Shown piece after piece: positions 6,270-24,613 of a stretch of 33,699 bases of DNA (within the stretch, counting starts at the first letter, position 1; each line of letters opens with the position of its first letter). Location: positions 1 through 33,699 of the forward strand of contig JASHQJ010000489.1 of the NCBI GenBank assembly GCA_030037595.1, read 5' to 3'. The notes under the pieces were generated by a model. It saw only the letters and a program-made list of their open reading frames with translations. It made no database searches and had not been told where the DNA came from. A program made the translations under genes and the position numbers. This stretch comes from Candidatus Binataceae bacterium. GTDB taxonomy: Bacteria; Desulfobacterota; Binatia; Binatales; Binataceae.

Positions 6270-7055
6270 CTCACCCTTGAACTTGGCCGGCCGCTTCTCG
6301 AGGAAGGCGCGCACGCCCTCCTGGAAGTCGGCGGAGCTGCCCGCCCGGCGCTGTGACTGGCGCTCGAGGTTGAGCTGCTCCTCGTACGAATTGCCGTCGC
6401 TCTCCCAGTAGAGCCGGCGGATGAGGCCGAGGGCGACTGTAGGACCGTTTGCCAGCTCCATCGCTAACTCACGGGCGTGATTCATCAACTCTGAGTCATC
6501 AAAGACGCGAGTGACGAGGCCCCACTCGAGCGCTTTCTCGGCGGGCAATCGTTCGCCCAGCATCGAGAGCTCCATCGCGCGCATCTTGCCAACAAGCCGC
6601 GGCAGGAGCCACGTCGAGCCGCCGTCGGGGACGAGCCCGATGCGCCGGAAGGCCTGGAGAAAGTACGCCGACCGCGCGCACAGCACGAGATCGCCCATCA
6701 GCGCGAAGCTCATACCGACGCCGGCGGCCGCGCCGTTGACCGCCGTGATCAAGGGCATCGGCAATTCGCGGAGCCGCCTCAGGAACGGATGATAGTGCGT
6801 CTCCAGCACCGAGCCCGCGTCGCCGGAGCCTTCGCCGCCTGAGCGCGGCTGTAGGTTTGCGCCGGCACAGAAGCCGCGCCCTTCGCCCGTCATGACGAGG
6901 CATCGCGCGCCGCTCTTCGGACTTTCGACGCGGTCGATCGCCTTCATCAGGCCGCCGAGCATCTCCTGCGAGACGGCGTTCATCACCTCGGGATGGTTGA
7001 GCGTGAGAGTCGCGACCGGTCCCTGGATATCGAGTTTGACGCGTTCAAATTCCAT
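6267..7055 (-). CDS. Enoyl-CoA hydratase/isomerase family protein
   Basis: VATLTLNHPEVMNAVSQEM, GRGFCAGANL and ITAVNGAAAGVGMSFALMGDLVLCARSAYF are crotonase motifs. Confidence 0.95.
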   Translation of the reverse strand: MEFERVKLDIQGPVATLTLNHPEVMNAVSQEMLGGLMKAIDRVESPKSGARCLVMTGEGRGFCAGANLQPRSGGEGSGDAGSVLETHYHPFLRRLRELPMPLITAVNGAAAGVGMSFALMGDLVLCARSAYFLQAFRRIGLVPDGGSTWLLPRLVGKMRAMELSMLGERLPAEKALEWGLVTRVFDDSELMNHARELAMELANGPTVALGLIRRLYWESDGNSYEEQLNLERQSQRRAGSSADFQEGVRAFLEKRPAKFKGE

Positions 7056-7144
7056 GGCAGTGTCTTAGCAGGCCTCGCGCCCGCTCGCCATTGAAGGAAC
7101 ACGGCAGAGCATCATGCTCGATGAGCAAAGATGGCGAACGATTT

Positions 7145-7654
7145 CTATTCGGTCGGGCGCTTCTCACCTAGATACTTGAGATTCAGCGCGGCGACGCCGG
7201 CGGCGACATTCAGTCCCGTCTGCCCTTCGAACGAAACCGGCTGCAACGCGATCGATTTTTTGAAACCGCCAACCAGAACGTTGGCGCCCGCGCCCGCTCC
7301 CAGACTGACGCTCGCGGTGGCGCCGCCGTATTCACCGGCAAGAGCGCCGGCGTGGAGGTCTTTGGTGGTGGCAGCGACCGCCCACACGATCACCGCGGAC
7401 TTGAGATAGCCGATATCGGCGCCGAACTTCGACACCGAGCCTGTATAGTATTCGACGCGCCCGCTCTTCGATGCGTACGAGCACTTAACGTCTCGTGAAG
7501 AACCGAAGATGAAACCCCATCCGGAGCTCTCGACGCAGGTGAGGTAGCCGGTCTTGACTGTATAACCGCCTTCGGCCGCGTTAGCCGACGGCATCATGAA
7601 CGCCATCGAGAGAAGGATACTCGGGGCAATCAAGGTGAAAGTCCTGGATGTCAT
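7145..7654 (-). CDS. DUF992 family secreted protein (start MTSRTF at 7654 within ORF 7145..7738)
   Basis: Signal peptide ending ANAAE; VKTGYLTCVESSGWGFIFGSSRDVKCSY, VEYYTGSVSKFGADIGYLKSAVIVWAV, GAGANVLVGGFKKSIALQPVSFEGQTGLNVAAGVAAL recognised as DUF992. ggaggcaat RBS upstream of ATG 7654. Confidence 0.85.
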   Translation of the reverse strand: MTSRTFTLIAPSILLSMAFMMPSANAAEGGYTVKTGYLTCVESSGWGFIFGSSRDVKCSYASKSGRVEYYTGSVSKFGADIGYLKSAVIVWAVAATTKDLHAGALAGEYGGATASVSLGAGAGANVLVGGFKKSIALQPVSFEGQTGLNVAAGVAALNLKYLGEKRPTE

Positions 7655-7817
7655 ATTGCCTCCGGTAATCGAGCAGTCAGTGAGCAAGACAAGTGAATCG
7701 CTTCCGGCCGCCACAACGTCGATTGCTATGGCGGTCACTGCGCGCGCATGCTATCGAAGCTCGGCCCGAATCTTACAAACCGCGGGGGAACATAGTAATA
7801 GTCTTAACAACTAACTT

Positions 7818-8690
7818 ATGAGCGATGCGCCAGTCAGCGAGGAACTAATCGAGCAATTCGAGCGCGACGGCTTCGTCGTCGTTCCCGGATTGTTTACTGA
7901 GAGCGAGGTCGAGAGCTTCGGCCGCGCGGTGGATGCCGCCGTCGCCGATCGCTCTCGCAACGACCAGCGCGCGCTGCACGAGCGATCGCCCTACGAACAG
8001 TCCTTCCGCCAGTGCATCAACCTCTGGGAGGATCATCCCGAGGTCTTGCCGCTGACGTTTCATCCGAAGATTTCCGAGGCCGCGACGATGCTGGCGCGGG
8101 CGCCCGCCCTGCGCCTGTGGCACGATCAGGCGCTTTACAAGGAGGCAGGTGGCCGCTACACCGAGCCGCACCAGGATCAGCCCTACTGGCCGATGGACGA
8201 GACCAACACGCTTTCGGCTTGGATTCCGTTCGACGGTTCGACTCGCGACAACGGATGCATGGGTTACGTGCCGGGCTCGCATCGCGTCGGGCTGCGGCGC
8301 TTCGTGAACATCTTCACGGCGGACGAGCAGGTGAAGATTCTCGAAGATCCTAAAATCGAGGGCGTGCCACCCGTGTACGTCGAGGTGCCGCGCGGCAGCG
8401 TCGCGTTTCATCACGGGCTAACGGTTCACATGGCGGGACCGAACAGAAGCGGTCGCATGCGGCGGGTACATACGATGATCTACTTCCGCGACGGCGCGAC
8501 GCGCACCAAGCCCTATGTGCATCCGAGCGTCGATCGCCCCGGTATCAAAGTCGGCGAGGCGATTTCGAGCGATCTCACGCCGATCGTGTGGCCGCGCGCG
8601 ATTGGCGACTGGCCGAAGCCCCCGCGGATGCCGCTGACTCCAGTTCTCGAGCGCCTGAACGCGCACGGCGCGCTGCCGACGATCAAGTAA
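7818..8690 (+). CDS. Phytanoyl-CoA dioxygenase (PhyH) family protein
   Basis: LWHDQALYKEAGGRYTEPHQDQPYWP (HxD-type metal site), VAFHHGLTVHMAGPNRSGRMRRVHTMIYF. Confidence 0.9.
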   Translation: MSDAPVSEELIEQFERDGFVVVPGLFTESEVESFGRAVDAAVADRSRNDQRALHERSPYEQSFRQCINLWEDHPEVLPLTFHPKISEAATMLARAPALRLWHDQALYKEAGGRYTEPHQDQPYWPMDETNTLSAWIPFDGSTRDNGCMGYVPGSHRVGLRRFVNIFTADEQVKILEDPKIEGVPPVYVEVPRGSVAFHHGLTVHMAGPNRSGRMRRVHTMIYFRDGATRTKPYVHPSVDRPGIKVGEAISSDLTPIVWPRAIGDWPKPPRMPLTPVLERLNAHGALPTIK

Positions 8691-8795
8691 CTTTTGCGTC
8701 ACGCGCTCGGCAATGCGGCGTTCCTGACAATCGCCTGGTAGTCATCGCTATATCGATATTGTAGAAGATTCGCTGGCCACGAGTTCCGAGCATCT

Positions 8796-10712
8796 GTGCC
8801 ACGGATGAGTAACGAGCCGTCGCTCTATTGGCTGCCCGACGATGATCGGTGGACCACGCGTCTGACCGAGGCCGAATCGCTACCGGACGAGCAGGGTGCA
8901 TGGAGGGCGCTGGTCGCAGTCGGGCGCACCCGTGCAGACTTCGTGCGAGCGAAGCGCATCGATCTCGCGCTCAGCCGGCGTTTCGAGACGCATCCCTCCG
9001 CGTCGCTGACAACCCGGCCAGTGCGGCTCGCGATCCTGAGCTCGTGCACCACGAGTCATCTTGCCCCTGCGATTCGCGTTGCTCTTCTCCGGCGCACGAT
9101 GTGGGCGCAGGTCTATGAAGCTTCCTTCGGACAGTATCGGCAGGAACTGCTCGATCCGAAATCAGCGCTTCACCAATTCGATCCCACGGAGGTTCTTTTC
9201 TCCTTCGACGCGCGGCACCTGATCGGTTTGGTTGGAGACCTGAACGACGACCGCGCCATGCCACGCGTCGTCGATGGTATTCGCCAGTGTTGGACGATCG
9301 CGCGAGAACAATTCCGATGCGACATCATCCAGCAGACGGTGATGCCGGTATTCGATCAGCTATACGGCAGCAACGAGCATCGTTTCGCCACTTCAAAATA
9401 TAGTGTCGTCCGCCGAATCAACGATGCGCTGCGCGAGATTGCCGGTCGCGAAGGAATTGACTTGTTGCCAGTCGATTCGATCGTTGAGCGTTACGGCTTG
9501 GCGGCCTGCTACGATCCTTCCTTCTGGCATCGCGCGAAGCAGGAAGTAAGTCCCGCGATCGCGCCGCTCTATGGCGACCATGTCGCGCGGATTGTCGCCG
9601 CGCGCGCTGGCCGCTCATACAAGTGCGTAGCTCTCGATCTCGATAACACGCTATGGGGCGGCGTGATCGGCGACGACGGGCTCGAGGCAATCGTCATCGG
9701 CCAGGGCAGCGCTGAAGGCGAGGCCTACGCGGATTTTCAACGATACATCTTCGAGCTATCGCGACGCGGAATCATAGTAGCCATCTGCTCGAAGAATGAA
9801 GAAGGGATCGCGTGGTCAGCCTTCCGGTCTCATCCGGAAATGGTACTGCGCGAGAATGATATTTCGATCCTGGTAGCTAATTGGAATGACAAGGCATCAA
9901 ATCTCAGACGAATAGCCAGTTCGCTGAATATCGGACTCGATTCGATCGTATTCGTTGACGACAATCCCGCAGAACGCGCGCTTGTCAGAAGCGAATTGCC
10001 GGAAGTGGCGGTACCCGAGCTACCCGATGATCCGGCGCTCTTCTCACGATGCCTCGCCGACGCGGGCTACTTTGACACGCCGGTGCTCACCGAGGAGGAT
10101 CGCGCGCGAACGGAACAATACCGCGCCAATCGCACCCGCAGCGCTTCAGCCGAAAACACCGCCGAGATGCCGGCGTTTTTGAGAAGCCTCGAGATGAAGC
10201 TCGAATGGCGACGATTCGACAGGCTAGGTCTTGCGCGGATCACTCAGCTAATCAACAAGACCAATCAATTCAATCTCACGACCAGGCGATATGCCGAAAG
10301 TGACGTCGCAGCGATCATGGCCGATCCGAACGGCCTGGCGCTTCAGTTCCGGCTGCTGGATAAATTCGGCGACAATGGAATGATTGCTATCCTGATCGCT
10401 CGCGCGGCGCACGGCGACGAGATGGAAATCGACTGCTGGCTGATGAGTTGCCGGGTTTTCGGACGGCAGGTCGAATACGCGGCGATGAACGTGCTCGCCC
10501 AGGAGGCTATTCTCCGCGGTGCACGTCGTCTAGTTGGCGAGTACCTACCCACGGCGAAAAATGCGATCGTGGAAAACCTCTATCCCGCGATGGGCTTCGT
10601 CGAGATGCCGGCGTCGATTCCTGGCCGGCGCCGCTTCAGCCTCGAGCTTAATTCCTTCAAACCGTTCGAAACGTTTATCGAAGTTCGAAGTAACAGCGAT
10701 GGAGCAAGCTGA
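8796..10712 (+). CDS. HAD-IIIC family phosphatase / FkbH-like protein (N-terminal region, HAD domain, GNAT-like C-terminus)
   Basis: CVALDLDNTLWGGVIGDDG (HAD motif I), VAICSKNEE, DSIVFVDDNPAERALVRSELPEVAVPELP, C-terminal LINKTNQFNLTTRRY and DCWLMSCRVFGRQVEYAAMNVL as in FkbH-type proteins. Confidence 0.93.
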   Translation: MPRMSNEPSLYWLPDDDRWTTRLTEAESLPDEQGAWRALVAVGRTRADFVRAKRIDLALSRRFETHPSASLTTRPVRLAILSSCTTSHLAPAIRVALLRRTMWAQVYEASFGQYRQELLDPKSALHQFDPTEVLFSFDARHLIGLVGDLNDDRAMPRVVDGIRQCWTIAREQFRCDIIQQTVMPVFDQLYGSNEHRFATSKYSVVRRINDALREIAGREGIDLLPVDSIVERYGLAACYDPSFWHRAKQEVSPAIAPLYGDHVARIVAARAGRSYKCVALDLDNTLWGGVIGDDGLEAIVIGQGSAEGEAYADFQRYIFELSRRGIIVAICSKNEEGIAWSAFRSHPEMVLRENDISILVANWNDKASNLRRIASSLNIGLDSIVFVDDNPAERALVRSELPEVAVPELPDDPALFSRCLADAGYFDTPVLTEEDRARTEQYRANRTRSASAENTAEMPAFLRSLEMKLEWRRFDRLGLARITQLINKTNQFNLTTRRYAESDVAAIMADPNGLALQFRLLDKFGDNGMIAILIARAAHGDEMEIDCWLMSCRVFGRQVEYAAMNVLAQEAILRGARRLVGEYLPTAKNAIVENLYPAMGFVEMPASIPGRRRFSLELNSFKPFETFIEVRSNSDGAS

Positions 10713-10953
10713 AATTTACGAACGGCTCACCGGAATTTTTCACGAGGTCTTCGGCGACGATTCAATCGTGCTCACGCCGGAGACCACCGCGACCGATATC
10801 CCGGACTGGGACTCCGCCAACCACATCAGCCTGGTAGTGGGTGCCGAAGCGCGCTTCGGGATCCGCTTCAAGACCGCCGAGCTCGAGGAGCTCCGCAACG
10901 TCGGAGAATTTGTCGAACTGATTGGCAAGAAACTCGCTAATCGTCGACACTAG
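10699..10953 (+). CDS. Acyl carrier protein (ATG 10699 inside ORF 10534..10953)
   Basis: MEQAEIYERLTGIFHEVFGDDSIVLTPETTATDIPDWDSANHISLVVGAEARFGIRF; DS of DWDSANHISL is the expected phosphopantetheine site. Overlaps the fkbH-like gene by 14 nt. Confidence 0.92.
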   Translation: MEQAEIYERLTGIFHEVFGDDSIVLTPETTATDIPDWDSANHISLVVGAEARFGIRFKTAELEELRNVGEFVELIGKKLANRRH

Positions 10954-10959
10954 GTCCGG

Positions 10960-11916
10960 ATGCGCACGACCAGGTTCTTCGCAAGCTTTCTGATTACCTT
11001 AGTCGGACTGGTGTTCGTCGGCTTTCTGATTGCGCGAAGCAGCTACTACATAAAGCATATTGTCTATTTCTACCAGGTCCCGATGGAGGTGAAGTTCAAG
11101 GCGCGTAATATCGACGCCGATGTCCTGCTTGTGGGCGATTCAGCATTACTCAACGGCGTGGATCCAGCAGTGATTACCAGTGACACACATCTCACTTCAT
11201 ACAATCTTGGTATTCCCGTTTCGGCGTTTATCTATGATCCATATTCATTGCCCGATACCTACTTGAGGCAGAACTCGAAACCCAAGTTGATAGTTCTCTA
11301 CGTTTCGCCGATAGCGAGCCCGTCGCACCCCGATCCTTACTTTTCATGCTACGACGCCGGGATCATGTTCCTTCGCTACTGCCGGCTCTCGAGGACATTG
11401 AGATTCTTCGCGGCGCTGCCGGCGAGGATTCCTTCTTTCGCGCTCACGGTTTACGACTTTCTGATCTGGCACTTCGATCGGACAGGACAATACTTCACAG
11501 AGCAGGCTGCGTCGCTCGTCGCCGAGCGCGGCTACAGCCCGAACCGCGGACTAGCCGATGATCATCTGACGCTCGCAACCTGCAAGTCGGCAGACTCCAG
11601 CACCGGTCCGCTCGATGCGGCTTTCTACCGGCAGTTTCGTGAGCGCTACGAGGCGCGGGGGATTCCGGTTGCTGTCTATCTCGCGCCGTTTGCCGACTGC
11701 GATCCCCGCTTCGATTACTATGCTGTCCATGCAAAAGGTATTACCGATAACAACGTCGCTCGCCTGCCTTACGCGCTCTTCACTCACGATGCTGTCCGGG
11801 AGCATCTGCTGGATTCGGGCGCTACACTCAATTCCCATATGGTGGCGCGCTTCATCGAGCAGTATCGCGCCGGGCACAAGGGCTTGATGACGGCGTCGAG
11901 CGCGAATCCTGACTGA
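10960..11916 (+). CDS. Membrane-anchored SGNH-hydrolase-like protein (DltD/AlgJ-like context)
   Basis: N-terminal TM helix FFASFLITLVGLVFVGFLIA; DVLLVGDSALLNGVDP resembles SGNH block I (GDS). Adjacent to ACP and MBOAT genes. Confidence 0.7.
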   Translation: MRTTRFFASFLITLVGLVFVGFLIARSSYYIKHIVYFYQVPMEVKFKARNIDADVLLVGDSALLNGVDPAVITSDTHLTSYNLGIPVSAFIYDPYSLPDTYLRQNSKPKLIVLYVSPIASPSHPDPYFSCYDAGIMFLRYCRLSRTLRFFAALPARIPSFALTVYDFLIWHFDRTGQYFTEQAASLVAERGYSPNRGLADDHLTLATCKSADSSTGPLDAAFYRQFRERYEARGIPVAVYLAPFADCDPRFDYYAVHAKGITDNNVARLPYALFTHDAVREHLLDSGATLNSHMVARFIEQYRAGHKGLMTASSANPD

Positions 11917-13538
11917 TGCTGTTCACGTCGCGCGAGTTTCTATTCGCGTTCTTGCCGATCGCGCTCGCGGGCTTCTACCTGCTCGGACGCCGCGGCGGCC
12001 ATCTCTCGATACTTTGGCTCCTCGCCGCGTCGCTCGTTTTCTACGCATGGTGGAATTACCACTTCGTTCTCCTGCTGCTGGTTTCTGTAACCTTCAACTA
12101 TGTCTGCGGACTCGCGCTCAAGCGGAATCTCGATCGCGAAAATCGACTCAAGTGGTTTTTGATTGCCGGTTTGGCGGGAAACATAGGTCTGCTCTTTTAC
12201 TACAAGTACTTCGGACCGCTGGGTCACTGGCTAGTCGCTCTAGGCGCACTTTCGGCAAGCAGCAAGCACCTCACGTTACCTCTAGGTATTTCGTTCTTCA
12301 CCTTTACCCAGATTGGCTACCTGGTGGACTCGGCGGCTGAAAGCGCCGACGAGCTGAACTTCTTCAAGTACGGTTTGTTTGTCACTTTCTTTCCGCACCT
12401 GATTGCCGGTCCGATCATCCATCATCGCGAGATTGTGCCGCAGTTCAACGACCCGGACACGTATCGATTGAAGACGAGCAACCTCGCGGTCGGGCTTTCG
12501 ATTTTCGTGATCGGGATGGCCAAGAAGGTGCTGCTGGCCGACGCAATTGGGCCGATCGCTGATCATGCGTTCGATGGATGGCGTCACCTGGAGCTGTGGT
12601 CGAGTTGGATCGGCGCGATTGCCTATTCGATGCAGATATATTTCGACTTCTCCGGCTACAGCGATATGGCTATAGGCCTTGCGCGGATGTTCGGAATTAC
12701 TTTTCCGCTCAACTTCAATTCTCCGTATAGAGCTACTTCGGTAGTTGACTATTGGCAGCGTTGGCATATGACACTGACGCGCTATCTCACGTTGTATTTG
12801 TACAATCCGATGGCGCTGTATGTTCGCCGGAGCAGGATGGTGGCCAAGAAGCCGGTCAACCGCAAAGCTCTCGCTACAGCTGAGGGCTTCGGCCAGATGA
12901 TCGCGGCGCCAACGATTTACACGATGAGCCTCGCGGGAATATGGCACGGCGCGGGACTGCAATACCTTTACTTCGGCCTGCTGCACGGCATCTACATGAC
13001 GATCAATCACGGCTGGCGGACTTTCGTGACGGAACGGATGCCGGCGACGATGATGACGGGCCGGCTAGCAAAAGGAATCAGCTACCTCATCAGCGTGATG
13101 CTCACGTTTGTTGCCGTGCTGGTGGCGCTGGTTTTCTTCCGCGCGGAATCGCCTAGTGCTGCATGCTCGATCCTGGCCGCAATGGCGGGTGCCTATGGCG
13201 CGCGGGCGCCCGCGCTCGAGGTTTCACCCGCGACGATCGACTGGCTAGGCGCGGCGGGTCGCTGGATGGAGCGCGTGGGCATACTTCACGCTCCGCCGCA
13301 AGGTGATTCGAGCGCCGTTATCGCGTTGATTGCCGCGATCTTGATTGTGTGGACGATGCCGAACACGCAGCAGATCATGGTGGCCTACAAGCCGGCTCTG
13401 GATCCCGAGCACGTGTTCAAGGCGAGCTGGCTCAAATGGCGCCCCAACGTGGCGTGGGGGATTCTGCTCGCCATCGCATTCCTTGCGTGCGTCGGCACGC
13501 TCGCCGCGCCGCAGAAGTTTCTGTACTTCCAGTTCTAG
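11916..13538 (+). CDS. MBOAT family O-acyltransferase (AlgI/DltB-like)
   Basis: MLFTSREFLFAFLPIALAGFYLL start, LPLGISFFTFTQIGYLVD, FFPHLIAGPIIHH, DFSGYSDMAIGLARMFG, WQRWHMTLTRYL, MSLAGIWHGAGLQYLYFGLLHG (catalytic His). Start overlaps the upstream stop (TGATG). Confidence 0.97.
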   Translation: MLFTSREFLFAFLPIALAGFYLLGRRGGHLSILWLLAASLVFYAWWNYHFVLLLLVSVTFNYVCGLALKRNLDRENRLKWFLIAGLAGNIGLLFYYKYFGPLGHWLVALGALSASSKHLTLPLGISFFTFTQIGYLVDSAAESADELNFFKYGLFVTFFPHLIAGPIIHHREIVPQFNDPDTYRLKTSNLAVGLSIFVIGMAKKVLLADAIGPIADHAFDGWRHLELWSSWIGAIAYSMQIYFDFSGYSDMAIGLARMFGITFPLNFNSPYRATSVVDYWQRWHMTLTRYLTLYLYNPMALYVRRSRMVAKKPVNRKALATAEGFGQMIAAPTIYTMSLAGIWHGAGLQYLYFGLLHGIYMTINHGWRTFVTERMPATMMTGRLAKGISYLISVMLTFVAVLVALVFFRAESPSAACSILAAMAGAYGARAPALEVSPATIDWLGAAGRWMERVGILHAPPQGDSSAVIALIAAILIVWTMPNTQQIMVAYKPALDPEHVFKASWLKWRPNVAWGILLAIAFLACVGTLAAPQKFLYFQF

Positions 13539-13577
13539 GGGGAGCGCCGCGCTGGCTTTGCGATCCGCCCTCCACCT

Positions 13578-13606
13578 GCGGTCCGACTCGAATCGATTCG
13601 GACCGC
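13578..13606. repeat. Inverted repeat GCGGTCCGA-N11-TCGGACCGC in the convergent intergenic region
   Basis: 9-bp perfect stem read directly; the loop region overlaps an alternative 12-bp palindrome CGAATCGATTCG. Confidence 0.85.
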
Positions 13607-13621
13607 CGCCTCTCCCGGTGT

Positions 13622-13649
13622 GCGGCTTCCGCCTCACGGCGTCAGCCGC
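13622..13649. repeat. Second hairpin GCGGCT...AGCCGC with an inner CGCC/GGCG stem
   Basis: Read directly: gcggct tc cgcc tcac ggcg tc agccgc. Confidence 0.8.
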
Positions 13650-13702
13650 GGACGAGGCTATTCAACGGAGACGCACTCGCCATGGTGCGTGAAACCGCCG
13701 TG

Positions 13703-14533
13703 TTACCGCTGGAACGACGGACCAGAGTAGCCGGCGGAAAGTTGCTGCTCGACGCCCGCGAGCTGGAACGGCGTGCCAGCGGTGAAGCCACCGTCCACCA
13801 CCATCGCGGCGCCTGTAATCCAATTCGCCTCGTCGCTCGCCAGGAACATCGCCATGTTGGCGATATCCTCGGCCTGGCCCGCGCGCTGGAGCGGCTGCGC
13901 CTTGCCGAGGATCGGATCCAGAGTCTCTTTGCCTCCCGGAATGCCGCCATGGACCAGCGGCGTGCTGATAACGCCGGGGCAGATACAGTTGACTCGGATT
14001 TTATCCTTGCCCAGTTCGATAGCTGCCGTGCGGGTGAGGTTGATCACCGCGGCCTTTGACGCGCTGTAAGCGTGAAGGCGGAAGCTGCCCGAGAGTCCGG
14101 CAATGGAAGCGGTGGAGATTATCGATCCGCCACCCGCGGCGCGCATCGGCGCCACGGAATGCTTGATGCCGAAAAAGACGGCCTTGATGAGAATGGCGAA
14201 GGTCTTATCCCATTCGGCTTCGGTAGTGGTTTCGATCGACCCGGTTGCGCCAATCACACCGGCATTGTTGTAGGTGATATCGAGGCGGCCGTATTCGCGG
14301 ACGGCGCGATCGATGAGCGTTTTGATGTCCTGCTCGCTGGTGACGTCGGTGCGCTGATAGACGGCGCGGCCGCCGGCGGCGGCGATTTCGGAGACGAGCA
14401 GTTCGCCACCCTGCGAGTTGAGGTCGGCAGCGACTACGCCCGCGCCTTCGGCGGCGAAGCGGACGGCGCTCGCGCGGCCGAGTCCGCTGGCGGCGCCTGT
14501 GATCACTGCGACTTTGCCTTCAAGTTTGCCCAT
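13703..14533 (-). CDS. Short-chain dehydrogenase/reductase (classical SDR)
   Basis: VAVITGAASGLGRA (TGxxxGxG), NNAGVIG, STASIAGLSG, YSASKAAV (YxxxK), VNCICPGVISTPL. Confidence 0.95.
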   Translation of the reverse strand: MGKLEGKVAVITGAASGLGRASAVRFAAEGAGVVAADLNSQGGELLVSEIAAAGGRAVYQRTDVTSEQDIKTLIDRAVREYGRLDITYNNAGVIGATGSIETTTEAEWDKTFAILIKAVFFGIKHSVAPMRAAGGGSIISTASIAGLSGSFRLHAYSASKAAVINLTRTAAIELGKDKIRVNCICPGVISTPLVHGGIPGGKETLDPILGKAQPLQRAGQAEDIANMAMFLASDEANWITGAAMVVDGGFTAGTPFQLAGVEQQLSAGYSGPSFQR

Positions 14534-14640
14534 CGGTTTCTCCTGCGCTCCAACGTCTCAGAGGAGCTGGTGCTCACAGTTATTTGAGAAAATAGTTAAT
14601 GGCACTGTCAGCCAGGAAAACGCAATTGACTGGTCTTGTG

Positions 14641-14665
14641 AGATTCACCTGCGAAGCGTGAATCT
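14641..14665. terminator. Hairpin AGATTCAC-N9-GTGAATCT overlapping the 3' end and stop codon of the DUF3052 gene
   Basis: 8-bp perfect inverted repeat read directly. No clear T-tract, so terminator function is a guess. Confidence 0.4.
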
Positions 14666-15083
14666 AAGGCCCGCCCATTCTTCGCTGATGGGGCAGATTT
14701 TGAAGTCCACCATGCCGGCATCCAGAGCAGCTTTGCGCACACTTTGCTGGTTGAGGCCTGGCCTGCTCCGTCTTCTTCGACCAGATGATCGAGAGCACTC
14801 CGCCTACGGCGTCTCTCTTCATCGCGGCTATTTTCGATTGCATCATTTTGGCGGAGGAGGTGAACCACAACGTGAGGTCGCGCGCGCGGCGCGCGTTCCT
14901 CGCTATGGTTGCACCATCGGGCAGCGCGCCGAGCGTCTCTTCGAATCCCGGCGGCGCGTTCACCGACGCAACGATGGCGTTGGGCTTAATCCCGAGCCTG
15001 TCGGCCAGCGGTTTCTCAGAATCTGCGGCGAATACTGACAACTGGCGAGCGCCGGCCGGCGGAGAGCTCCAGGGTCCATCCAC
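14645..15083 (-). pseudogene. DUF3052-family protein, apparently disrupted by a frameshift near 14752-14775
   Basis: Frame A: SEKPLADRLGIKPNAIVASVNAPPGFEETLGALPDGATIARN...DLTLWFTSSAKMMQSKIAAMK...GVLSIIWSKKTEQ. A different minus frame then gives NQQSVRKAALDAGMVDFKICPISEEWAGLRFTLRR-stop (14645-14752), the expected DUF3052 C-terminus. Confidence 0.75.
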
Positions 15084-15378
15084 GATAATCTACCCGCGCT
15101 CGGATAGAAGCTGCCGATGAGACTCAGCGTCGGCGCCACCGGCATTAACGAACCAGACCAGGCCCGAGGGCCGTTCGCTTCGAGTTTTCTTCACCATTTG
15201 CGGTTCAGTCGGCGTGAAGTTATCGACCCAGCTGCGGGCAAGGTTGCAGCTTCCGAAATGCCGGGTCTATCCAGCAAGAGAAAAATTATTGCCGCAAGCT
15301 GTCTATCGGACGTAATGTTCGTCTGCGAGATAGTGCTCGTTTCGCGGACTGATTCGAAGATCAGGGGAGCATTCGACG

Positions 15379-16182
15379 ATGAGCGCAAAGAGCCGCACAA
15401 TATCCTGGACATCGTTTTCCGCGGCGCTGTTTTTTGCGCCTGCAATTGCGGGCGCGCAGACGCTGCCTGCATTCAGTACGGATATCGTGCCGAACGGGCT
15501 CAGCTTGACGATAGTAAGTCAGAAGGAAGCCACGGAGACCGGCAAGACCGAGACAGACACGTTTACGATAAACACCGGCTTCACCGGCTCCGATTTCACC
15601 GACGATTTGATCGATCTTATTTCCAGCGGGGGCACGCTGGAGGTGGGAGTCGCTCCCAATGGAAGTTGCCGCACCGGCGAAACGATTTTGCCGCCAATCA
15701 GTATCCCGATGAGCGGTGTGACTCACACTACAAGCTCAGGCGATGACATCTTCGCGTTCACGAGCCCCCACTTCTCCGCAAATTGGACCATATCTCCGTT
15801 CGAGGTGAGCAGCGGTGGGAGTGGGCAGAGCGGTGGCAGCCAGAACACCAGCGTTTCATGCATCAACGGCAACTGCACCGTCACGGGTGGCAGCGGAAGC
15901 ACGATCATCAACAACAACGGCTCTGTGATTATCGAGAACAACTCGGTGGGAGGCTCGGGCGGCGCCACGCCAACCGATGAGATGACTTTCAAGGCGACTG
16001 CCAGCGTGGCAGGAATCATCCCGCTGCCGCAAACGCCGGTTGACGTATTCTTCCTACTATATCCGAATCCAAGCGGCGCCTTGGAGGGTGGCTGCGTCAC
16101 GCTTCACTCAATTTCTGTGAACAATCAGATGCGGAACGTAATCGGCAAGACGACGGTGACGAGCACCTACGCGGCGCACTGA
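15379..16182 (+). CDS. Secreted protein of unknown function with a Gly/Ser/Asn-rich central segment
   Basis: Signal peptide SFSAALFFAPAIAGAQT; central SSGGSGQSGGSQNTSVSCINGNCTVTGGSGSTIINNNGSVIIENNSVGGSGG. Confidence 0.75.
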   Translation: MSAKSRTISWTSFSAALFFAPAIAGAQTLPAFSTDIVPNGLSLTIVSQKEATETGKTETDTFTINTGFTGSDFTDDLIDLISSGGTLEVGVAPNGSCRTGETILPPISIPMSGVTHTTSSGDDIFAFTSPHFSANWTISPFEVSSGGSGQSGGSQNTSVSCINGNCTVTGGSGSTIINNNGSVIIENNSVGGSGGATPTDEMTFKATASVAGIIPLPQTPVDVFFLLYPNPSGALEGGCVTLHSISVNNQMRNVIGKTTVTSTYAAH

Positions 16183-16207
16183 TCGAAATTGTCGGCTCGC
16201 GCCGAAA

Positions 16208-16564
16208 TCACACTGATTCGCCGAGGCGCCTCTTCGCCGACCGCGTAGCGAATGCTACTGCGGCGCCTATTACAAGCGATACGCATCCGGCCAACGCGAA
16301 GGCGAGCCACCACTCGACCCAGTGGTGCAATAGAAGGATTAGGGCTGCCAGCAGACATACTGCCGCCGCGGCAATGAAGCCCACCACCGCGAGCATCGCG
16401 AAGGCATCCAGGAGCGTTTCCTTGCGTGACGTGCGGAAACTTGCTTCCGCGAGATGGACCTCCGCGTGCACCATACGTGCGACGTCGTCGATTGCCCTGG
16501 CCGCCAGTGTGGTCCATTCGGGTTCGTCATGGGCGCGCAGTTCAGCGGGTTCCGTTGCTTCCAT
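16208..16564 (-). CDS. Phage holin superfamily III-like / YqjE-like (Phage_holin_3_6 type) membrane protein
   Basis: N-terminal amphipathic helix, two TM segments (AMLAVVGFIAAAAVCLLAALILLLHHWVEWWLAFALAGCVSLVIGAAVAFATR). Confidence 0.7.
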   Translation of the reverse strand: MEATEPAELRAHDEPEWTTLAARAIDDVARMVHAEVHLAEASFRTSRKETLLDAFAMLAVVGFIAAAAVCLLAALILLLHHWVEWWLAFALAGCVSLVIGAAVAFATRSAKRRLGESV

Positions 16565-16862
16565 CTTTTGCTTCGCCGCTCAACTCGACCAGCTTCGCCG
16601 CGCCAAATCCCAGCAGCAGGCCGAGCACGACGGGTTCGAAGATTGGCAGGTCAACTGAACCAAGCAGGAATCCCGTGGCGGTGCTGATCCCGATCGCGGC
16701 TCCAGGATAGTTTGAGAGCACAAAGCGGTCGGGCCGCAATTCCGTATCGACGATGGTCTCGACCTTCTGGCGCATCTGCTCGACCGTTTTGCGCAAGTCG
16801 CGGCGCGCGTCGTCGGCCTGCTCTTCAAGCTCTATTATCCGCTGTTCGTCGATCATTGCCAT
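16542..16862 (-). CDS. Small membrane protein with an N-terminal helical segment (DUF3618/DUF883-like)
   Basis: ELEEQADDARRDLRKTVEQMRQKVETIVDTELRPDRFVLSNYPGAAIGISTATGFLLG; overlaps the next gene by 23 nt. Confidence 0.6.
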   Translation of the reverse strand: MAMIDEQRIIELEEQADDARRDLRKTVEQMRQKVETIVDTELRPDRFVLSNYPGAAIGISTATGFLLGSVDLPIFEPVVLGLLLGFGAAKLVELSGEAKDGSNGTR

Positions 16863-17091
16863 TCACAAACATCGACACGAGCATCGAACTCGCGAGGCCC
16901 GCCGCGATCTCGCGTGCCACGATGCGGCTGATGAGCGAAGTGGCGAAGCGGCCCGGACCCGTCATCGCACCGCCGCCGGCGAAGAATCCGGTAATCGCAG
17001 CTGCTGTGACGGCGAGAATCGGTTCCTGCCGAATGACATCGGCCCAGTTCTTCGCGTCGGATCGATAATTCTCTTTCGACGCGTTGCGCAT
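16825..17091 (-). CDS. Small membrane protein of unknown function (start MRNASKE at 17091 within ORF 16825..17172)
   Basis: NWADVIRQEPILAVTAAAITGFFAGGGAMTGPGRFATSLISRIVAREIAAGLASSMLVSMF; QEPxLAVxxAAxxGFFAGG resembles the DUF883 membrane anchor. Overlaps the adjacent gene. Confidence 0.6.
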   Translation of the reverse strand: MRNASKENYRSDAKNWADVIRQEPILAVTAAAITGFFAGGGAMTGPGRFATSLISRIVAREIAAGLASSMLVSMFVNGNDRRTADNRA

Positions 17092-17102
17092 CAGCTTTAC
17101 AC

Positions 17103-17279
17103 CTACGCGGACCGGCGCATCAGGCGCGCGATCACGTATCCAATCGCGAACGCAGCGCCGACCGCGAGCCACGGCTGATCGCGAACGAACTCGCGAAGCT
17201 CGGAGCCGAAGTCATGCTGGTTGACATAGTCCTTGACAGCGTCGGTCGCACGCTCAGCGGCCCGGCCCAGTACAGCATT
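17103..17279 (-). CDS. DUF883/YqjD-like C-terminal membrane segment, no canonical start found (possible remnant)
   Basis: Manual minus-strand reading: NAVLGRAAERATDAVKDYVNQHDFGSELREFVRDQPWLAVGAAFAIGYVIARLMRRSA-stop, with the typical PWxAVGxAFxxGxxxxRLxRR ending. Not in the ORF track. Confidence 0.55.
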   Translation of the reverse strand, partial: NAVLGRAAERATDAVKDYVNQHDFGSELREFVRDQPWLAVGAAFAIGYVIARLMRRSA

Positions 17280-17452
17280 CGACTCTAAGTTCCATTGGTT
17301 TCTGAGCTTCCAGCCTCGCGTCGACGACCGAAGCTAAGCGCTCAGTCATCGAAGAGTTCAGCAATCAATGCGCCCCCAGTCCGAAATGCAGGATTAGTTC
17401 GGGGGACGGCTCGGAATCGTTGGCAATTATTTCGGTGACTGCGCAGCCGCGC

Positions 17453-17469
17453 GATGAACAATGTTCATC
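17453..17469. promoter_or_regulatory. Inverted repeat GATGAAC-AAT-GTTCATC, operator-like
   Basis: 7-bp perfect arms, 3-bp spacer, in a 440-bp noncoding gap upstream of the 17718 CDS. Confidence 0.4.
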
Positions 17470-17717
17470 CTTCACGAGAATGGGTGCCGGTGTCGTCGAG
17501 GTGTGAAAACTCTACACGATCGGAAACTTATAGATTCGGCGGCGTCAGTATTTATGTGGGTTTTTTCTGGCTCTGCTCTTGCTTGGTGAGTCGCAAAGGT
17601 CAAGCGAGAGAATCGAAGCATGACTGTGGATCAAAGAAAAAACGAACGTCCGGCGCGCAATCAATTCCCGGAGCGCAATTCCGACCGGATCATCGTTGAA
17701 AGCGTAGAGGGGTTCAT

Positions 17718-18176
17718 ATGAGAGCTCATCCGGTCGAGACCGAAACGTTGCCGGGGTTTTTTCAAGGCGAATGCATTCTGCCGTCGCAATACAACGAGAG
17801 TGGCCCGCGGCGCTACTCCGATGAGGGCCAGCGCCGCCTGCTGCTAGCGGTGCTCGAGGACGCGATCCGTTGCTACTTCGATTACAGCGGCGCGATGCGC
17901 GGGACGGATCGTTTCGAGGAGTTCAGCGAAGCGCGCGACTGGATTTATTGGACGGGCGAATCCGCAGGCCTTTCCTTCAACAACGTGTGTGAGGCTCTCG
18001 GTATCGACGCGAACTGCCTGCGAGCCGGCCTCAAACAGCGCTTCGAATCGCTTACGACCCGGATGCGCCAAGCGTCACGTGATGAAGCCGCGGGAGCACG
18101 GCCGGCCAATGTGCGGATGCGGATCAATCTCCGCGAACGCAACGGCAGGATGCGTGTAGTCGCGGCGCGGAGCTAA
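17718..18176 (+). CDS. Conserved-looking hypothetical protein, 152 aa
   Basis: LLLAVLEDAIRCYFDYSG...FSEARDWIYW...LSFNNVCEALGIDANCLRAGLKQR looks like a compact helical domain. RBS-like gagggg upstream. Confidence 0.7.
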   Translation: MRAHPVETETLPGFFQGECILPSQYNESGPRRYSDEGQRRLLLAVLEDAIRCYFDYSGAMRGTDRFEEFSEARDWIYWTGESAGLSFNNVCEALGIDANCLRAGLKQRFESLTTRMRQASRDEAAGARPANVRMRINLRERNGRMRVVAARS

Positions 18177-22311: not shown

Positions 22312-22382
22312 TTTCCTGCGCGATGCCCTGATAGGTCACCCGTCAGTGGAATAATTTACCCTTAAAGTCCTCGATCGCCGGC

Positions 22383-22508
22383 TCAAATCCCTTGCAGATA
22401 CTGGAATTTTTCAATGGTCTCGCTCTTGCTGCCGTTCTTTGGCGGAGAGGCGAATTCGCTTTGATAGCGCGGATATCTTGTCGGACTTCTCACGAATTTA
22501 CGGGGCAT
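22383..22508 (-). CDS. Possible 41-aa small protein
   Basis: Manual reading: MPRKFVRSPTRYPRYQSEFASPPKNGSKSETIEKFQYLQGI-stop in an otherwise empty 270-bp gap; no strong RBS seen. Confidence 0.25.
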   Translation of the reverse strand: MPRKFVRSPTRYPRYQSEFASPPKNGSKSETIEKFQYLQGI

Positions 22509-22581
22509 CGAGGACAAATCTTTTGAACCCCGCGATTACCAAGCGGACAAGGCTCTCCGGCGACATGACGGATGAAACACC

Positions 22582-22941
22582 ATGTCCGAGATGGAGAAAC
22601 ATCGCCCGCCCCTGAGCACGCCTGGACACTTGTCCGACTCCGAGACCGGGCGTCGATCTGTTTTGGATCGCGGTACCGAAAATTCGCTTGCACGGTTCGC
22701 ATATGAGTTCAGCGTTGAAATCAATGACATCCTCAACGCTGCCGCGCTCAGGCTCGCGCTGCTCAGATGGCAGCCGAACGGCGCCCGCAGCGAAGGCGAT
22801 ATCGTGCGCCTGGCAAAGATGATCGATCGCGCAGGCAGCCTGGTCCGATGGCTCCAGGACCGCTCGTTCGCTGCCCTGGAGCACCACCGCGGCCGTGCAC
22901 GGTCTTCGCACGGACGAGACCGAAAACGATTTGGACATTGA
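22582..22941 (+). CDS. Hypothetical protein with a degenerate HisKA/DHp-like segment
   Basis: FAYEFSVEINDILNAAALRLALLRWQPNGARSEGDIVRLAKMIDRAGSLVRWLQDRS resembles a DHp helix pair (compare AHQLRSPLHGMNLRLELLR in the 19731 kinase) but lacks the phospho-acceptor His. Confidence 0.45.
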   Translation: MSEMEKHRPPLSTPGHLSDSETGRRSVLDRGTENSLARFAYEFSVEINDILNAAALRLALLRWQPNGARSEGDIVRLAKMIDRAGSLVRWLQDRSFAALEHHRGRARSSHGRDRKRFGH

Positions 22942-22946
22942 TTGCT

Positions 22947-23222
22947 ATGAAGAGATCCGCATCAAAAAGTCTAACGGCGATCGTGGCGCTCCTCGCATTG
23001 GTCAGCGTTTCTGCTTGCGCCACGCACCAGGAAACCCAAACTACACAAACGACGACAACTCCGGCCTACAGCGATGATTCCTCGCCGCCGACAGAGACGA
23101 CGACGACCACAACCATGAGCGATGAACCGGACAGCGTAGTCGGCTCGGTTTTTCACGCGGTCGGGACAGTGATCCTCTTTCCGTTCAGATTGATCGGCGA
23201 CGCGCTGGGCTTGATTTTCTGA
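22947..23222 (+). CDS. Small lipoprotein, Thr-rich (ATG 22947 inside ORF 22767..23222)
   Basis: MKRSASKSLTAIVALLALVSVSAC lipobox, Thr-rich spacer, hydrophobic C-terminus VVGSVFHAVGTVILFPFRLIGDALGLIF. Confidence 0.7.
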   Translation: MKRSASKSLTAIVALLALVSVSACATHQETQTTQTTTTPAYSDDSSPPTETTTTTTMSDEPDSVVGSVFHAVGTVILFPFRLIGDALGLIF

Positions 23223-23250
23223 CGCGGTCGCTGGAGCGGCTCGTGGTCCG

Positions 23251-23538
23251 TTACTTCGCCGCCCGCGCCGCTTTGTTCTTCGGCCGATTCATCGAGCCGT
23301 GCACCGTATGTTTGCCCGGCCTGCGTTCGAGGTCATGAACCCACGTCTCGATATCGGACAGTACAAAGCGGTACGACTTGCCGAGTTTGAAGCCTGGCAA
23401 CCCATTCTCCCGCAACAGGCGATAGATTGTAGAAGTGTGACAGTGCAGATAGTCGGCGAGTTGCCGCACGGTAAGGACCTGGTTGGCTAGTTCCACGTTG
23501 AGTGGTTCCTCCGTTCGACGCTCTTCGAGACGATTCAA
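23251..23538 (-). CDS. Excisionase-family (HTH_17, MerR-like) DNA-binding protein
   Basis: VLTVRQLADYLHCHTSTIYRLLRENGLPGFKLGKSYRFVLSDIETWV. Confidence 0.9.
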   Translation of the reverse strand: MNRLEERRTEEPLNVELANQVLTVRQLADYLHCHTSTIYRLLRENGLPGFKLGKSYRFVLSDIETWVHDLERRPGKHTVHGSMNRPKNKAARAAK

Positions 23539-23724
23539 GACCCTAGCAAAATGTACATCTTGCAGGCAATTAAGACCGTTAGTAGCGGCCAGCTCTCGGC
23601 TTTAAACCCGGCCCGCGCGGCCGGATCCACTTTTCCCCCCTGAGCCGATCGAGGTGCCGTTCAGAACGCCGGACCTGGGACCCTGCAGAGTCAATACGCG
23701 GTCGCGAGCCAGACCGCTCGGCAT

Positions 23725-23970
23725 TCAGGAGGTAGCGGGCTTGTTCGTCATTCGTTTCTTTCGCCACTCTTCGATAGAGCGAAGATTGAAGCGCCAATCG
23801 CTGCCCAGTTTGAAACCGGGAATCTCCCCTTTCTGAAGCAGTCTGCGAATCGTCGCCTCGTGGCAATTGAGGTACGACGCTAGCTCGCTCATCGTAATGA
23901 TTTCCGCTCTCTGCGAAGGAGGTGGGGCATCGGACGTGGCTGTACCCTTACGACGACTGTTCGCAGGCAT
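23725..23970 (-). CDS. Excisionase-family (HTH_17) DNA-binding protein, paralogous to 23251..23538
   Basis: IITMSELASYLNCHEATIRRLLQKGEIPGFKLGSDWRFNLRSIEEWRKKR. Confidence 0.9.
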   Translation of the reverse strand: MPANSRRKGTATSDAPPPSQRAEIITMSELASYLNCHEATIRRLLQKGEIPGFKLGSDWRFNLRSIEEWRKKRMTNKPATS

Positions 23971-24230
23971 AAAAGCCCAAGAGGACTAAAGACTACTTAT
24001 GGAAGGAAATCATAACTATTAAGAAGTGGCAATAGGAACTATCGCTCAGCGTAGTGGATCACAGAATGGCACAAAACTGCCGTTTGAAGTCAAAAATGCT
24101 TGAATGGTTGTCTAATTACTAAGACGTGGTGACTTTCTATCATCGATTGCAGACTTCGCTTTAAACTTCATTACAAAAAAAGACCAACGAGCGTTCAGAT
24201 CGACGGCGCATCGCGCATTTGCCTTATATG

Positions 24231-24258
24231 ATTCTTAATGTAAGAATTTGTTAAGAAT
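24231..24258. promoter_or_regulatory. Operator-like cluster ATTCTTA-ATG-TAAGAAT-TTGT-TAAGAAT
   Basis: Perfect 7-bp inverted repeat plus a third copy in direct orientation about one helical turn further on, in an AT-rich intergenic region. Confidence 0.5.
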
Positions 24259-24309
24259 GTTGCTTTAATTTTGCACGCGTCTTTCCTGCGTCTCTGCTGA
24301 AAATCTGAG

Positions 24310-24531
24310 ATGAATCGGCCAGCTACTGCCTCTCGCTCGAGCTCCAAACCGCCACAAGAAGTCATCAAGCGATGGCTGGCGGGTCAGCGATGCCGCCGAT
24401 GCGCCCAGCACGACACCGAGAAGATGGGCGGAGTGCTGCTTGTGCTCCGGAACGACGACGACGAGCTTGAAGTTTTACCCTTCTGTTACGAGTGCGCCTG
24501 GAAGGTCTTCAAACAGGGCGAGCAGCTCTAG
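24310..24531 (+). CDS. Small Cys-pair protein (candidate zinc ribbon), 73 aa
   Basis: RCRRCAQHD...PFCYECAWKVF; two CxxC-type pairs. Confidence 0.7.
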   Translation: MNRPATASRSSSKPPQEVIKRWLAGQRCRRCAQHDTEKMGGVLLVLRNDDDELEVLPFCYECAWKVFKQGEQL

Positions 24532-24613
24532 TCCGCTAGTTTCGCATCGCGATCCGCCAAATCCGTTCAGAATTGACGCCGCCGGGCTGAGGTAAACTTC
24601 AGACTCGGCTATC

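Follow-up and report, generated by a model that had tools for sequence, protein, structure and literature searches.

Can an FkbH-type enzyme, whose best known role lies in polyketide and tetronate pathways, feed an acyl group to the modification of a bacterial envelope? The question is raised by a stretch of 33,699 nucleotides from a Candidatus Binataceae bacterium (contig JASHQJ010000489.1; this whole stretch is hereafter the window), in which four genes at positions 8796-13538 encode an FkbH enzyme of the HAD-IIIC type and a free-standing acyl carrier protein (ACP) together with a membrane-anchored SGNH-like protein and a membrane-bound O-acyltransferase (MBOAT). The original prediction, made from the DNA letters, regarded these genes as a dlt-like acyl-transfer cassette where FkbH replaces the amino-acid adenylating enzyme. 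In our estimation the balance tips slightly towards a carrier-protein-fed envelope acylation machine, in which FkbH would load a glyceryl unit on the ACP, a tyrosine of the MBOAT would relay it and the SGNH-like protein would transfer it to an envelope acceptor.

The four open reading frames (ORFs) are co-directional and lie at the positions originally predicted. Their tight coupling was confirmed on the DNA: the FkbH and ACP genes overlap by 14 nt (10699-10712), a gap of 6 nt separates the ACP gene from the SGNH gene, and the latter overlaps the MBOAT gene in a TGATG at 11914-11918. The features of the cassette are the following:

8796-10712, plus strand: FkbH-type HAD-IIIC enzyme of 638 amino acids, with FkbH_N, HAD core and C-terminal FkbH half (TIGR01686, FkbH_N)
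9636-9662, plus strand: HAD motif I, DLDNTLWGG, with D281 and D283 (sequence; alignment of 13 FkbHs)
10699-10953, plus strand: free-standing ACP of 84 amino acids (weak PF00550; 2lml match)
10813-10815, plus strand: codon of Ser39, predicted phosphopantetheine attachment site, in a WDS motif (alignment of 17 ACPs)
10960-11916, plus strand: membrane-anchored SGNH-like protein of 318 amino acids, proposed extracytoplasmic acyl transferase (N-terminal helix; alignment; weak model)
11916-13538, plus strand: MBOAT O-acyltransferase of 540 amino acids (PF03062; match to DltB, 6bug)
12942-12950, plus strand: WHG with the predicted catalytic His344 of the MBOAT (W343-H344-G345 invariant in 16 MBOATs)
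13518-13535, plus strand: FLYFQF, an FxYxxF acyl-shuttle motif with Tyr537 at the MBOAT C-terminus (alignment; function from PMC12148441)

Conservation of the cassette

If the four genes form a unit, the same association should reappear in relatives, and neighbourhoods seeded on FkbH bore this out. Thirty loci (numbered here with the prefix L) were recovered by FkbH similarity alone, and the 29 with a long FkbH were counted. An ACP gene lies within 3 kb of FkbH in 28 of them, the exception being a 3-kb contig, and an MBOAT gene within 6 kb in 19, on the same strand in 17. The loci belong to Pseudomonadota (Alphaproteobacteria and a Curvibacter) and to Bacteroidota. By our own estimate, which considers a few MBOATs in a genome of 4-5 Mb, roughly 1% would be expected, so the linkage of FkbH and MBOAT in 19/29 loci is beyond chance. 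In the FkbH tree, the MBOAT label takes 5 changes, as compared to a mean near 20 for shuffled labels.

The gene order reads VOC-MBOAT-SGNH-ACP-FkbH on the annotated plasmid pSymB of Sinorhizobium meliloti and ACP-FkbH-MBOAT-unannotated SGNH-VOC on an annotated plasmid of Rhodobacteraceae SC52, and a further named case is found on a plasmid of Tistrella mobilis. The window cassette, like L014, L016 and L025, is minimal and has no other transferase, and FkbH and MBOAT genes are separated by just 22-25 nt in L014, L016 and L019. The FkbH of the window groups with that of L005, which is linked to an MBOAT, and with that of L081, which lies in an FkbH-ACP-WcbI-SDR locus (support 100/100), indicating that neighbouring genes have been swapped within this FkbH clade.

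Some particularities of these loci deserve mention. In S. meliloti 1021, the FkbH gene of pSymB is split in two overlapping frames (L086, 8797-10859), while other strains (e.g. L085) carry one intact frame, and the SGNH-like cassette protein of L085 (7398-8627) is annotated as a 'TonB-dependent receptor', probably a misannotation. Adjoining the closest cassette, L005 encodes at 14946-17795 a fusion of 949 amino acids with AMP-binding, carrier and Acyl_transf_3 domains, possibly a single-chain carrier-fed membrane acyltransferase.

Predicted loading of the carrier protein

The product of the first gene scores 298.5 bits against TIGR01686 (cut-off 146.65) and also matches the FkbH_N domain. Its probable start is the ATG at 8805 instead of the GTG at 8796, as the distance from there to the WLP motif equals that of L081. 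Residues D281, D283, T285 and W287 are invariant across the 13 aligned FkbHs, and the motifs CSKN and FVDDNP as well as K366 are also present. Comparison with FkbHs from tetronate contexts keeps D281, D283, S332, K366, D388, D389 and C552 (in SCRV) invariant. The sole strong relative of solved structure, 3slr (BF1531), is uncharacterised. FkbH domains load D-1,3-bisphosphoglycerate on T domains and dephosphorylate it, which leaves a glyceryl group on the carrier (PMC8949500). The replacement of an adenylating enzyme by FkbH held up as well: none of the window proteins scanned matched an AMP-binding domain.

The ACP falls just below the PF00550 cut-off (19.9 versus 20.8 bits), but among solved structures it comes closest to an ACP, 2lml (E=4.5e-21), and W37-D38-S39 are invariant among 17 aligned ACPs. 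We take 2lml to be GmACP3 of Geobacter metallireducens. According to the title of a work cited in PMC4847154, GmACP3 is a specialised ACP that putatively takes part in lipopolysaccharide biosynthesis.

FkbH alone fixes neither the acyl group nor its destination, because the FkbH-ACP module is common to MaoC-SDR, WcbI, nonulosonate and tetronate pathways.

Proposed export of the acyl group

The MBOAT matches PF03062 with 85 bits and is DltB-like by sequence (PDB 6bug, E=3.7e-21), its score of 160 bits against TIGR04091 being well below the 375 cut-off of this DltB model. The protein extends C-terminally past the DltB match and terminates in FLYFQF (residues 535-540). F535, Y537, F540 and the WHG are invariant in 16 cassette MBOATs, and FxYxxF is exact in 23 of 24 complete ones, with IVYKNF as the sole exception. 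In PatA, the tyrosine of a C-terminal FxYxxF is the covalent acyl carrier between the MBOAT and its SGNH protein, a shuttle role reported in the Dlt pathway for a separate peptide, DltX (PMC12148441, 2025). The name dlt-like thus describes the cassette in part: a donor carrier protein is encoded with the MBOAT, as predicted, but the shuttle is the MBOAT's own C-terminus, as in PatA and AlgI, and not a DltB and DltX pair.

The SGNH-like protein can be aligned with SGNH proteins whose genes neighbour a cassette MBOAT, those of Bacteroidota at 15-21% identity, and Ser61 (in GDS) and His282 are invariant in this alignment. SGNH-type genes adjoin most cassette MBOATs, and most of their products have the DxxH motif. 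On its own, the window protein has no sequence match in Pfam, NCBIfam or PDB. It may be either a divergent or an impaired transferase, and its catalytic role is a putative one deduced from alignment and gene position.

Predicted acyl group and acceptor

The window cassette holds no MaoC, SDR or methyltransferase gene, and for this reason plain glyceryl is the simplest product. Some relatives differ: a MaoC-SDR fusion is inserted in the Curvibacter locus L008, and genes for an S-adenosylmethionine (SAM) methyltransferase and a VOC protein stand between or beside FkbH and MBOAT in Rhodobacterales-type loci (L006, L012 and Paroceanicella). These insertions suggest a variable acyl group, tailored while it is on the ACP, either to methylglyceryl or, through dehydration and reduction, to lactyl. 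Several Chitinophagaceae loci (Bacteroidota) carry two MBOAT/SGNH pairs each.

As for the acceptor, L023 sits in a glycan setting, where a GDP-mannose dehydratase and an RmlD-like gene accompany three glycosyltransferases of the GT4 type, and L006 carries a GT2. Other transferases also accompany the module: L030 shows the order DegT aminotransferase-ACP-FkbH-Antibiotic_NAT-type N-acyltransferase, and in Maritalea a long FkbH protein lies near pseB and a gene of the N-acetylneuraminate synthase family. The FkbH-ACP module appears to feed several glycan acyltransferases, the MBOAT being one of them.

Proposed pathway and alternative explanations

From gene order, coupling, motifs and conservation as a unit, we infer a pathway whose acyl group, chemistry and acceptor would be as follows. 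FkbH would take D-1,3-bisphosphoglycerate, dephosphorylate it and load a D-glyceryl thioester on the holo-ACP. The MBOAT would then bind glyceryl-ACP at the cytoplasmic face, where His344 would drive the transfer of the acyl group to Tyr537, near the outer face. Finally, and this is the weakest step, the SGNH-like protein would accept the acyl group on Ser61 and pass it in ester linkage to an acceptor outside the cytoplasm, which is most likely a glycan.

Several observations weigh against this pathway. The SGNH-like protein lacks a canonical DxxH, since V279 occupies the position where the Asp would be expected and Asp277 stands five residues before His282, and it is an orphan, without homologs in 148 genomes of the class or in plasmids. 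Its fold model (pLDDT 60) is of low confidence and too weak for a judgement of the catalytic triad; most of its matches are SGNH/GDSL enzymes, with DltD at rank 34, and no match has E<0.001. Among 28 FkbH-bearing genomes compared in the window's phylum, FkbH and MBOAT are side by side only in G000 and G010, the latter a genome of the window's family where the cassette linkage was read directly; rare as it is, this linkage is still above chance by our estimate of about 0.05 expected cases. No glycan genes accompany the window cassette to point to an acceptor. Last, the FkbH and ACP module is also found without an MBOAT, so that the MBOAT might use acetyl-CoA independently.

This last point leads to an explanation in which MBOAT and SGNH work as a common O-acetyltransferase with acetyl-CoA as donor, FkbH and ACP being mere operon companions whose product would be used elsewhere. 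PatA, with the same fused FxYxxF, does take acetyl-CoA (PMC12148441), and the double MBOAT/SGNH pairs of some Bacteroidota loci would also fit. Nevertheless, the linkage is repeated across phyla, in minimal cassettes without any other transferase and with the gaps of 22-25 nt already described, and we consider such operon sharing unlikely. Somewhat less doubtful, though still improbable, is a carrier-fed export by MBOAT and SGNH of a modified C3 acid, made by enzymes in or outside the cassette: lactyl, through dehydration by MaoC and reduction by an SDR, or O-methylglyceryl, through a methyltransferase. Besides the tailoring genes of the relatives, suomilide and varlaxin provide known examples of FkbH together with glycerate methylation (PMC10143770). 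On the other hand, no tailoring gene lies inside the window cassette, and the nearby SDR gene (13703-14533) runs in the opposite direction, its homolog lying elsewhere in a genus mate.

The missing DxxH, together with the absence of the cassette at the homologous site of this genus mate, could also indicate a window copy in partial decay, which has lost the catalytic Asp of its SGNH protein while the cassette disappears from the genus. All four genes are intact though, with FkbH, ACP and MBOAT keeping every expected motif and the SGNH-like protein its Ser61 and His282, so we give decay only a slim chance. Slimmer by far is that of a polyketide or tetronate role, in which FkbH and ACP would supply a glyceryl or methoxymalonyl unit. 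Related FkbHs do occur in clusters of the ketoacyl-ACP synthase (KAS) III, E2 and polyketide synthase (PKS) type, but tetronate-context FkbHs form a separate group (100/99) from the window FkbH with L005 and L081, and the window clade is not part of PKS clusters in related genomes. As originally noted, neither PKS modules nor FkbG/I/J-like genes lie beside the cassette; the Pfam scan showed none of these among the window proteins scanned, nor any ketosynthase, KAS III or E2-type gene, and the polyketide/tetronate role was rejected on gene context and FkbH tree.

Other FkbH genes

The Nitrosomonas-type loci (L018, L020, L031-L033) contain ACP-FkbH, a MaoC-SDR-like protein and a second ACP but no MBOAT, and are a different use of FkbH-ACP; L018 also encodes a protein without Pfam match. 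A second, family-specific FkbH clade exists in the window's family (L062, L063, L065-L068), with no ACP or MBOAT detected nearby, and in the two loci of this clade examined, L065 and L066, a hexapeptide-repeat protein follows FkbH. The window's own genome has a second FkbH fragment (L077, 3046-3767), which lies where a contig ends and is interrupted by a frameshift; the FkbH most similar to it is that of L069.

Locus history and genomic surroundings

Contig C154 of the genus mate (G001) is homologous to the window through a PhyH dioxygenase gene up to position 8814 and resumes at 16026. Window positions 8815-16025 are therefore missing there. Since some 10 nt of the FkbH start, counted from its probable ATG, are kept, a deletion in the genus mate is favoured, with insertion into the window lineage as the alternative; the junction might also be an artefact of the mate's contig. 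The PhyH gene (7818-8690) was dismissed as a fifth cassette gene, as the genus mate keeps it without the cassette; none of the relatives inspected, a subset of all of them, showed a PhyH-type gene upstream of FkbH. The SDR gene 13703-14533 was likewise discarded as a cassette gene given its opposite strand and the location of its homolog on another contig of the genus mate. Contamination was also rejected, the RecN of the window being 90% identical to that of the genus mate and family values ranging from 54 to 75%.

The cassette has a GC content of 55-58%, compared with 60-66% in the left flank and 64% just to its right. A promoter scan of positions 7000-15000 gave nothing, and terminator-like matches did not exceed those of shuffled sequence. 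Farther away, no convincing gene is seen over about 2.3 kb (22312-24613), a stretch flanked by a two-component system and an L,D-transpeptidase gene.

Significance and comparison with known systems

Taking all loci together, we see an even chance that the cassette represents a widespread, apparently undescribed envelope modification, in which glycerate derived from 1,3-bisphosphoglycerate would be activated on a carrier with no need of ATP-dependent adenylation, after which MBOAT/SGNH pairs would export it as a surface-glycan ester, with methylated and possibly lactyl variants. Within open-licence full text (subscription papers were outside the scope), no work was found that joins FkbH, ACP and MBOAT in an envelope role: the three are mentioned together only in aeruginosin work, and searches for HAD-IIIC with MBOAT, for glyceroyl and for guessed S. 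meliloti locus tags gave nothing. L-glyceryl esters are known substituents of gellan. They were discarded as a precedent, since FkbH should give the D-isomer and two Sphingomonas polysaccharide papers mention neither glycerate nor FkbH.

If the proposal is true, the donor of an envelope acylation would be a phosphorylated glycolytic intermediate instead of an acyl-CoA or an adenylated amino acid, tying surface chemistry to central metabolism, and fused-shuttle MBOAT/SGNH pairs would not be restricted to acyl-CoA donors. It would also provide an origin for glyceric acid esters of bacterial polysaccharides that can be put to the test, S. meliloti strains with an intact locus being a tractable host.

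Among known systems, Dlt (DltA-DltC-DltB-DltX-DltD) shares with the cassette the path from an acyl group on a small carrier protein to an MBOAT, DltB-like in the window, and then to an SGNH protein. However, FkbH replaces the ATP-dependent adenylating DltA, the predicted acid is glycerate and not an amino acid, and there is no separate DltX, its motif being fused to the MBOAT and no room being left for a gene between the four ORFs. The absence of a DltA-type enzyme, the fused shuttle and the score below the DltB cut-off lead us to class the cassette as a variant of MBOAT/SGNH envelope acylation outside the Dlt family, though it would be carrier-fed like Dlt. PatA/PatB and the AlgI-type O-acetyltransferases have the same MBOAT with a fused C-terminal FxYxxF and a membrane-anchored SGNH protein, but they work without a carrier, PatA on acetyl-CoA, whereas the cassette encodes an ACP and its presumed loading enzyme; indeed, MBOAT/SGNH pathways other than Dlt have been stated to lack a carrier protein (PMC12148441), a generalisation to which the cassette runs counter.

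The FkbH glyceryl transferase/phosphatases of tetronate, suomilide and vioprolide pathways share the enzyme family, the HAD catalytic residues and a carrier partner, while the cassette is free of PKS and non-ribosomal peptide synthetase genes and its predicted product would go to the envelope. In Campylobacter jejuni, cj1302 offers another FkbH domain outside PKS, in a flagellar glycosylation locus, and the portion of PMC7099621 that deals with it mentions no MBOAT cassette. Judged from its genes, the cassette would thus join the carrier feeding of Dlt with the fused shuttle of PatA, a combination that other MBOAT/SGNH pathways do not have, according to PMC12148441.

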